In this document: positions 14,237 through 16,446 of the stretch, one piece after another
Layout of the letters: each line of letters starts with the position of its first letter
Position numbering within the stretch: position 1 is the stretch's first letter
NCBI GenBank assembly: GCA_020831705.1
Contig: JAFIGB010000342.1
Span: forward strand, 1-40,759
Length of the DNA: 40,759 bases
Direction: 5' to 3'
DNA from: Candidatus Sumerlaeia bacterium
GTDB lineage: Bacteria; Sumerlaeota; Sumerlaeia; SLMS01
Notes under the pieces: model-generated
Told to the model about the DNA's origin: nothing
Database searches by the model: none
What the model saw: only the letters and a program-made list of their open reading frames with translations
Translations under genes and position numbers: made by a program

Positions 14237-14275
14237 CGACTTTCAATCCCATCCGGCCCCATGGCCCGGTTTTGC

Positions 14276-14299
14276 CCTGTGAAAGTGCTATTTCACAGG
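14276..14299. promoter_or_regulatory. Perfect dyad upstream of the PBP gene (possible operator)
   Basis: CCTGTGAAA (14276-14284) and TTTCACAGG (14291-14299) are perfect 9-bp inverted arms around a 6-nt spacer, centred about 50 bp upstream of the PBP start. A direct repeat TTGCCCTGT (14272-14280 and 14300-14308) frames it. A related palindrome precedes nuoG (35323-35343). It could be a repressor or CRP/FNR-type site, or simply an RNA hairpin in the PBP leader. Confidence 0.45.
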
Positions 14300-14558
14300 T
14301 TGCCCTGTTGGGTAGCCCCCCCCCCGACACCATGGCAAGTCTTTTCGGATTTGAGGGATTTGGGTGCGGGGGGGGAATTGAGCGTAGAATCGTCAGCGAA
14401 AGGTTGACGACACTTACATGATTCCCAAATGATGCGCCAATCGTAAGTTGCGCCTGCATGGCGCCCGATAGCAGTGCATTGAATGTCCAAGGTGAGGGGA
14501 GTACCTCAGTCCCCATCGTGCAGCCAGCGCAGCCGCTGCTGGCCGGAAGTTATCATCC
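14300..14558. other. Divergent intergenic region between the PBP gene and the AlbA_2 gene
   Basis: No gene is seen. It holds a run of ten C (14316-14325) and a weak + strand promoter candidate: TTGACG at 14404 and AATGAT at 14428, spacing 18. Two small hairpins in the AlbA_2 leader follow, GGGGA/TCCCC at 14496-14514 and CCAGC/GCTGG at 14524-14542, the latter just upstream of the ribosome binding site GGAAG. None is strong alone. Confidence 0.3.
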
Positions 14559-16220
14559 ATGACCGAGAACCAACATACCGAGTGGAAGGAATCGTGGCGT
14601 GATGAGCATCTGAAGTGGGTCTCGGCGTTTGCCAATGCTGAGGGGGGAACACTTGTCATTGGCAGGAACGACAAGGGGGAGGCCGTGGGTGTGCCGCGTG
14701 CCCGGAAGCTCCTGGAGGACCTCCCCAATAAAATTCGTGACATGCTGGGGATTATGGTGGACGTCAATTTGATAAAGGAGAATGGGCGGGAGTTGATTGT
14801 GATTGTCGTCGAATCCTATCCCTACCCGGTGAGTTACAAGGGCGAATACCACTATCGTTCCGGAACAACCAAGCAGGTTTTGAAGGGTGCGGCTCTGGAT
14901 CAGTTCCTCCTGAGGAAGCAGGGAAAGCATTGGGATGGAGTGCCGCTGCCAGGCTTGAAGGTGGACGCCCTCTCCACCGATGCCATTACCACCTTTCGTC
15001 GGCTGGCAAGAAAGTCGTCCCGGTTGGACAGCGATGATCTGGATGAGGAGCGGGGAGTTCTCCTGGAGAAGCTGCATCTTTACGAAGACCAATACCTGAA
15101 GAGGGCGGCCTCGCTTCTTTTCTTCAAGGAACCGGAAAAATTTACGTCGGGGGCGTTTACGAAGATCGCGTTCTTCCGTTCCAACACCAATTTGCTCTTT
15201 CAGGATGTTGTTTCCGGCAACCTGTTTGATCAGGCCCTGAAGACATTTGACCTGTTGGAGACGAAGTACCTGATCTCCACGGTGACTTATCAAGGGATTC
15301 AGCGGAGGGAGAGGCTGCCTATTCCCAAGGCTGCCCTGCGGGAGGCTGTTCTGAACGCCCTGGTTCACAAGAACTATGGCGTGGCGACCCCGGTTCAAAT
15401 CAGTGTTTATTCCGACCGATTGATCATTTGGAACCCGGGGGAGTTGCCCGCCAACTGGACCCCCGAGCGGCTGAAGAGCAAGCACCCGTCGATTCCATAC
15501 AACCCGGCCATCGCCCACACGTTCTTTCTGGCGGGCTTGATCGAGGCTTGGGGGCGGGGATTTGAGAAAATCTACGCTGCCTGTGCGATTGAAGGGCTCC
15601 CTGAACCCCGAATTAAAAAAGATTCCGAGGGCCTTTGGATTGAATTGCAATTTCCAGAGGTGGATGAAAAGTGGGATAGAAACTGGGAAGATGTGGGTGT
15701 CATCTCGGAAAATGGGGATGAAAACGAAGCAGAGTGGGATGAAAACGCAGCACAGCGGGATGAAAATGAAGAAAAGTGGGATGAAAATGAAGAAAAGTGG
15801 GATAGAAACCGGGAAGTTGGGGATGAAAACGAAGCAGAGTGGGATGAAAACTTTGAAAATGGGGATGAAAACGAAGCAGAGTGGGATGAAAAATTTGAAA
15901 ATGGGGATGAAAAGCGGGAAGATGGGGATGAAAAGTTGGGTGAAACGGCTTGCAGGTTGGGTGAAACGGCTTACAGGTTGGGTGAAACCGCCGAGAGGTT
16001 GGGTGAAAAGTTGGGTGAAAACAAGGCAGCCATCCTTCTGCTGATGCTTGAGTCCCCGAAGATTTCGTCCAAGCGGGTCGCGGAGAAACTCGATCTTAGT
16101 GTCACTGCGATTGAGAACAACGTCCAAAAGCTCAAAGCGGATGGATGGCTGGAACGAGTCGGCCCCGCAAAGGGTGGCCATTGGAAGGTTCTACTGGAAA
16201 GGCTGGAGGAGGGTGACTGA
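14559..16220 (+). CDS. AlbA_2 (Schlafen-like) ATP-binding protein with heptad-repeat linker and wHTH
   Basis: 553 residues in three parts. Residues 5-125 are an AlbA_2/Schlafen domain (EWKESWRDEHLKWV, AFANAEGGTLVIGRND, SYPYPVSYKGEYHYRSG). Residues about 250-350 are the GHKL-like C-terminal part typical of COG2865 proteins (LREAVLNALVHKNYG, SDRLIIWNPGELP, LIEAWGRGFEKI). Residues about 490-553 are a winged helix (SSKRVAEKLDLSVTAIENNV). Such proteins are annotated as transcriptional regulators and often lie inside type I restriction-modification loci. Here the stop codon overlaps by one base (TGATG) the start of an hsdR remnant, which supports that origin. The linker at 372-488 is an unbroken run of heptads, more elaborate than the short GETVGET-like linkers usual before the winged helix. 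GGAAG precedes the ATG. Nucleic-acid binding is likely; the actual role is unknown. Confidence 0.85.
   Translation: MTENQHTEWKESWRDEHLKWVSAFANAEGGTLVIGRNDKGEAVGVPRARKLLEDLPNKIRDMLGIMVDVNLIKENGRELIVIVVESYPYPVSYKGEYHYRSGTTKQVLKGAALDQFLLRKQGKHWDGVPLPGLKVDALSTDAITTFRRLARKSSRLDSDDLDEERGVLLEKLHLYEDQYLKRAASLLFFKEPEKFTSGAFTKIAFFRSNTNLLFQDVVSGNLFDQALKTFDLLETKYLISTVTYQGIQRRERLPIPKAALREAVLNALVHKNYGVATPVQISVYSDRLIIWNPGELPANWTPERLKSKHPSIPYNPAIAHTFFLAGLIEAWGRGFEKIYAACAIEGLPEPRIKKDSEGLWIELQFPEVDEKWDRNWEDVGVISENGDENEAEWDENAAQRDENEEKWDENEEKWDRNREVGDENEAEWDENFENGDENEAEWDEKFENGDEKREDGDEKLGETACRLGETAYRLGETAERLGEKLGENKAAILLLMLESPKISSKRVAEKLDLSVTAIENNVQKLKADGWLERVGPAKGGHWKVLLERLEEGD
15672..16022 (+). repeat. 21-bp tandem repeat encoding about 17 heptads
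   Basis: Degenerate 21-bp units encode seven-residue blocks in register: WDENEEK, WDENEEK, WDRNREV, GDENEAE, WDENFEN, GDENEAE, WDEKFEN, GDEKRED. They then change into LGETACR, LGETAYR, LGETAER. Because the unit is a multiple of three and stop-poor, all neighbouring frames are also open here. The array is very acidic with a Trp or Gly at the first position and Leu in the last units. Confidence 0.85.
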
Positions 16221-16446
16221 TGGCGATGCATCCCTACTCCGAAGACGCCCTAATCGAGCAGCCAATCAATCAGCCATGGAGGAAATGACCCTCGACCGAG
16301 GAACCCTGAGCGTGGTGGAGGCTAATCGCGAGGTCTATACGCTGCTGAAGTCGGGGCACCGGGTGACGCTTCAGGATGCCTAGGGACGCGAGGAAACCCA
16401 CCGGGTGCGCTATCTCGATTGGGACAACTTCAATGTCCCATCCTGA
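16220..16446 (+). pseudogene. Remnant of type I restriction enzyme R subunit (hsdR)
   Basis: The ATG at 16220 overlaps the AlbA_2 stop (TGATG) and encodes MAMHPYSEDALIEQPINQ, the canonical HsdR N-terminus (YSEDALIEQP). The frame then breaks. In another frame from about 16264 the HsdR segment that normally lies about 60 residues further on appears (AMEEMTLDRGTLSVVEAN, REVYTLLKSGHRVTLQDA). An in-frame TAG at 16381 replaces what is usually Gln, then GREETHRVRYLDWDN continues to a TGA at 16444-16446. So an internal out-of-frame deletion, a nonsense change and loss of the nuclease and helicase domains are all visible. No hsdM or hsdS is in the window. This gene cannot make an active enzyme. Confidence 0.8.

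Follow-up and report, generated by a model that had tools for sequence, protein, structure and literature searches.

A Schlafen-like gene beside a dead hsdR carries tandem repeats that track its winged-helix recognition helix and are probably its own candidate binding sites

What does a gene do when the restriction subunit behind it has decayed, and what controls its product? The window analysed here, a 40,759-nt stretch of one contig from a Candidatus Sumerlaeia bacterium, raises this question with an apparently intact AlbA_2 gene that runs, through a TGATG stop/start overlap, directly into sequence resembling the 5' end of hsdR (Table 1). A preliminary description had read this sequence as the scar of a type I restriction–modification (R-M) locus, with the HsdR N-terminus followed out of frame by the next conserved block and an in-frame TAG, and had taken the overlap as a sign of former coupling. 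We found both blocks as described. The second block, which begins 11 bases past the first, matched only two genes when 72,556 plasmids (7.3 Gb) were searched by tblastn (45–47% identity, E 2e-8 and 3e-8), from Picosynechococcus and Planktothrix, both annotated as type I restriction endonuclease subunit R. Local blastp against HsdR gave E values of 4e-15 and 1.5e-14 and aligned the block at HsdR residues ~69–128, so that ~55 HsdR residues are absent between the blocks, close to the earlier estimate of about 60. The stretch from 16443 to about 16510 added little score and was non-significant alone. With the frameshift, the TAG (16381–16383) and nothing HsdR-like past ~16443, no open HsdR frame with motor and nuclease parts is left. 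The fragment had no match in the PDB or NCBIfam and reached only REase_I at E 0.05 in PADLOC.

Table 1. Features of the AlbA_2 gene and the hsdR scar behind it (window coordinates)
Feature	Position	Strand	Basis
Intact Schlafen/AlbA_2–HATPase_c_4–wHTH gene, 553 aa	14559..16220	+	ORF, Pfam, fold match
AlbA_2 (Schlafen-like) domain, aa 3–107	14565..14879	+	Pfam; conserved acidic E3, E8, D38
HATPase_c_4 domain, aa 277–361	15387..15641	+	Pfam
Distal array, 10 exact GGGATGAAAA copies, 21-nt steps (one 42)	15715..15934	+	Repeat count
Proximal array, 5 copies of TTGGGTGAAA(A/C), steps 21, 21, 21, 12 nt	15936..16021	+	Repeat count
Winged helix-turn-helix (wHTH), aa 491–537	16029..16169	+	Pfam, AlphaFold2 model, wHTH comparison of family members
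TGATG stop/start overlap, AlbA_2/former hsdR	16218..16222	+	Sequence; relatives with overlap
hsdR remnant, N-terminus, MAMHPYSEDALIEQP, opened by the ATG at 16220	16220..16264	+	Translation and local blastp
hsdR remnant, second block, MEEMTLDRGTLSVVEANREVYTLLKSGHRVTLQDA-stop-GREETHRVRYLDWDNFNVPS, out of frame, TAG at 16381	16276..16443	+	tblastn and local blastp

A second copy of the hsdR fragment was absent from the same genome, a metagenome-assembled genome (MAG) that is 84.6% complete in 502 contigs, and comparison with the R-M proteins collected for this analysis revealed no hsdM or hsdS remnants in the gap at 14237–14558. No empty site could be defined, since the PBP1-type gene and the ABC permease are not neighbours in relatives of the class. 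An assembly or sequencing error that conceals an intact hsdR would suit so fragmented a MAG, known here from its assembly alone, but would require a ~55-codon deletion, a nonsense change and the loss of some 900 further residues in one place, and ordinary genes continue on both sides of the scar in the contig; we regard it as exceedingly improbable. Judged from its sequence, the scar is genuine and hsdR is dead, and this gene of a former type I operon would have been inactivated by an internal deletion that shifted the frame, together with a nonsense change. The scar itself is ordinary, because RloC of Geobacillus offers a precedent: this R-M-linked RNase likewise lies by an hsdR relic (PMC2610378). 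As an ordinary gene death, it shows that an effector is able to outlive its restriction partner.

The surviving protein has the domain order of a bacterial Schlafen, with Pfam matches to SLFN_AlbA_2 (E 1e-14), HATPase_c_4 (E 2e-20) and HTH_24 (E 7e-6), in that order. Foldseek with an AlphaFold2 model (pLDDT 78), computed without plasmid rows, retrieved DIP2311 (3lmm) over the whole length at E 4e-23, followed by SLFN11/13/12 at about 1e-3; human Schlafens and MarR regulators match parts of the model. The acidic E3, E8 and D38, which by their spacing we take to be the Schlafen nuclease acids, are nearly invariant among relatives and kept in the window; the AlbA_2 domain is a candidate RNase. 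The gene also appears intact by its conserved core, where 8 of 138 columns deviate (relatives range from 0 to 21). Pfam found no AAA_13-type ABC ATPase, the hallmark used here for PrrC/RloC, in the window protein. A 542-aa open frame lies antisense over the whole gene (14553–16181, minus strand).

Relatives with an undamaged operon made the former coupling tangible. The order hsdS–AlbA_2–hsdR was found on a Synechococcus plasmid (L071), where the overlap is 1 nt, on plasmids of Arcobacter (L065) and Aliarcobacter (L069), where the genes overlap further or lie close together, and also in L090 and L133; in a planctomycete (L034) AlbA_2 and an intact hsdR share an ATGA overlap. A type I context was further seen in L073, L095, L121, L123, L130, L131 and others. 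The association of AlbA_2 with type I loci thus held in many cases, but not as a type I specialty: by gene neighbourhood, family members recur in R-M loci, both type I and type III-like, as well as in BREX loci, with one copy inside a BREX locus (L031; PglZ, BrxL), one near BrxL (L038) and one flanked by a DNA methylase and a ResIII helicase (L033, type III-like). The preliminary description had left a choice between an R-M-independent role and a recent loss; R-M independence appears common in the family, because many relatives have no R-M neighbour. In the family tree the position of the window protein has no support. Among viral contigs, the family alignment as query retrieved 0 relatives and a Bacteroidales query retrieved 3. 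The surviving gene would be a bacterial-Schlafen accessory effector in the hsdS/hsdR slot, a position like that of R-M-linked anticodon nucleases such as PrrC, which serves here as a model for the slot only and not as a family assignment.

The same genome still carries type I genes elsewhere: a second locus with a different, intact hsdR on contig C85 (1307–10177) and a further hsdS on contig C67. The C85 locus comprises hsdS, an AAA_13 ATPase, a 344-aa unknown, hsdR and a YgjP metallopeptidase. The AAA_13 gene, which matches PADLOC family PDC-S06, sits between hsdS and hsdR, so the other R-M locus of this genome has another candidate effector. In L029 (5200–8030), the HsdS C-terminal tail (QELLTGR.RLV) recurs ahead of one accessory gene after another between hsdS and AlbA_2; 3' of AlbA_2 this locus has no hsdR, and another gene overlaps the AlbA_2 stop.

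The preliminary description had missed repeat arrays within the AlbA_2 gene. Both arrays of the window gene sit in the linker between the HATPase and wHTH domains. The proximal unit, TTGGGTGAAA, is that of relatives with a STTAIE-type recognition helix (the helix of the window protein is SVTAIENNVQ, within 16095–16139), and the genome has no other paired TTGGGTGAAA sites. Most repeats in the window are GGGATGAAAA, not the unit expected from its group, and this array may be a variant or an old one. We tabulated 84 family members with a readable 3' end, and array-bearing relatives were spread over many phyla. A wHTH of the window type was present in 45, with in-frame arrays ahead of it at 12/24/36-nt steps; 31 had a second wHTH type with sites at or after the stop codon, at steps of 11, 31, 20, 22 and 9 nt; 7 had a third type and 1 was partial. 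By a strict criterion (one 7-mer at least three times within 45 nt), repeats were present in 43 of the 45 in-frame members (shuffles 1.8; neighbouring control genes 7/247) and in 18 of the 31 post-stop members (shuffles 0.3; control genes 4/247), the other 13 falling short of it. The spacings of the non-coding arrays are not multiples of three, and their register to the stop codon is fixed, with positions such as -11, 0, +9, +20 and +31 kept while the motifs differ in sequence.

What the unit follows is the recognition helix. For in-frame members less than 65% identical in the core, unit sharing was unrelated to core identity (r -0.007) but correlated with the helix at a partial r of 0.34 (0/2000 permutations) and with the rest of the wHTH at 0.13; for post-stop arrays the relation was weak on fewer data (77/2000 permutations at core identity below 80%), with the rest of the wHTH predicting as well as the helix. 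These tests treat members as independent, without phylogeny correction. Over all members with core identity below 65%, unit sharing was 4% at helix identity under 0.5 and rose to 20% and 39%. Across phyla, STTAIE-type helices pair with TTGGGTGAAA, G(I/V)KYHL with ACTACCC, GIEWQI with ACTAGGG, SAxQ with GTGGT(C/G), RNTA with TTGCAC, RQxAT with GTCAAT, and SKRT with TTGGGCAA, the last including Rhodothermus at about 40% identity; these groups were assigned by eye after the data had been seen, the partial-correlation permutation test being the unbiased one. Synonymous codons are fixed as well. LGEK is written TTG-GGT-GAA-AAG in 6/6 loci (window, L031, L035, L065, L090, L133), although TTG makes up 8% of Leu codons in the window, and TREK is ACT-AGG-GAG-AAA in 4/4 (L038, L054, L069, L122). 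The exception is L099, in which LGEK is spelled by different codons and the helix differs too. By these comparisons the repeat unit tracks the recognition helix and not the protein core.

Could the repeats count at the protein level alone, as a hydrophilic or coiled-coil linker that is prone to slippage and whose likeness in DNA reflects recent tandem duplication? In-frame units do encode 4- or 7-residue repeats, and AlphaFold2 gives helix at residues 390–432 and 461–485. However, numerous relatives have a non-coding array that lies at the stop codon or behind it with 11/9/20/22-nt steps, L120 has 11-nt steps inside the gene, and the synonymous codons are fixed across phyla, so that we find this explanation quite improbable. 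Because the sites vary in step with the DNA-reading helix, the arrays are probably candidate binding sites of the protein itself.

Two closely related plasmid loci showed how array and helix move. Arcobacter L065 and Aliarcobacter L069 share 99% identity in hsdM, 98% in hsdR and 97% in the AlbA_2 core (core as DNA); among the genes compared, differences are confined to hsdS (44%) and the array-plus-wHTH segment, and past this segment the last bases of the AlbA_2 gene are identical again. In both segments the array is the one that the accompanying helix predicts. In these loci, then, array and wHTH behave as a single exchangeable specificity module, with one swap seen. L065 and L069 also differ between hsdS and AlbA_2, with DUF87 and SLATT genes in place of a KAP NTPase, so accessory cargo was swapped at the same site. 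Such an exchange, the adjacency of array and wHTH, and the equal predictive power of helix and remaining wHTH in post-stop members would also be expected if the two travelled together as a recombining cassette and matched by shared descent, not by recognition. This account sits poorly with the in-frame class, in which the 10-residue helix outpredicts the rest of the wHTH, and with sites that agree in spacing and register and differ in sequence, and we judge it improbable. Genome G410 has four family members (L121, L130, L134, L135), of which the three with a readable 3' end differ in arrays and helices.

Taken as a whole, we consider it reasonably likely that the window holds a type I remnant with a surviving Schlafen effector whose wHTH binds an array at the 3' end of its own gene, the two forming an exchangeable module. 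The C-terminal wHTH would most likely bind the tandem array there, and sites spaced by roughly one or two turns of the double helix suggest that it does so co-operatively, along a single face. By holding the protein on its own gene, the array would keep it scarce or latent, through local autoregulation or tethering. The array motif was not enriched within 400 nt upstream of the gene (1.04 per kb against a background of 1.2), which does not match a promoter autorepressor or controller (C) protein with its own upstream sites and makes simple promoter repression unlikely; a better fit would be a local influence on transcription that runs through the gene or past its end, or the holding of a latent effector at its gene. 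The array directly ahead of hsdR in type I loci and the MarR-like wHTH could instead mark a transcriptional timer of the R-M operon, a roadblock or repressor and not an RNase effector. Against such a timer speak the missing upstream sites, the family members in BREX loci or lacking a downstream R-M gene, the near-invariant acids, and the report of BREX-linked Schlafen RNases that carry a histidine-kinase-like domain and a wHTH at the C-terminus (PMC12839542); we think it somewhat unlikely. In a bolder version of the favoured array-binding reading, to which we assign a rather low likelihood, widespread R-M- and BREX-linked Schlafen effectors would exchange self-contained cassettes in which the array holds a latent RNase and the DNA of the gene acts as antitoxin, so that the RNase would be freed once that DNA, or the restriction enzyme, was lost or degraded, and old arrays would persist downstream (L095, L123, L062). 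In the present genome, with the hsdR partner lost, the effector may have become inactive, may act independently, or may have only the array to hold it.

Several known systems resemble parts of this arrangement. BREX-linked Schlafen RNases joined to a minimal histidine-kinase domain and a wHTH, in the domain order of the window protein, have been catalogued (PMC12839542, 2026); the accessible part of that paper describes no R-M slot, repeat arrays, helix–array co-variation or cassette exchange. PrrC, which is silenced by its R-M enzyme, and RloC are R-M-linked RNases too (PMC2610378), but as ABC-ATPase proteins with another nuclease. TrlG of Photorhabdus, a relative with a dominant growth-restricting effect, shares AlbA_2 and HATPase_c_4 with the window protein and differs in its role in temperature restriction and its three-gene operon (PMC7554251). 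HsdS target-recognition modules are likewise an exchangeable specificity segment in a conserved operon, and hsdS too is divergent between L065 and L069; HsdS is read out at genome-wide methylation sites, whereas the array would be read out at the gene itself. Iteron-bound plasmid initiators are wHTH proteins whose tandem sites, spaced close to the helical repeat, lie within or next to their own gene; here, in contrast, no replication role is indicated, and the sites lie at the 3' end and are exchanged with the wHTH. A literature search of incomplete coverage found no prior report of such arrays.

If the arrays are the protein's own sites, dozens of natural wHTH/site pairs could be read from genomes as a data set for a wHTH recognition code, the odd KTVP, TREK, GEKL and TTQK repeats of 'ATP-binding' or 'RecG-like' proteins would be explained as DNA elements, and how Schlafen RNases linked to R-M and BREX are controlled would become directly testable. 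Some loci look as if older modules persist: L062 has arrays of two types, and in L095 and L123 a short ORF directly after the AlbA_2 stop, ahead of hsdS, is built from several 12-nt arrays (units TVEK, TREK, KVTE, TTQK and SGQK), like a graveyard of old modules. In L034 (8001–9470), one linker holds two arrays, of TPGK and then APPV units, and APPV alone fits the wHTH type.
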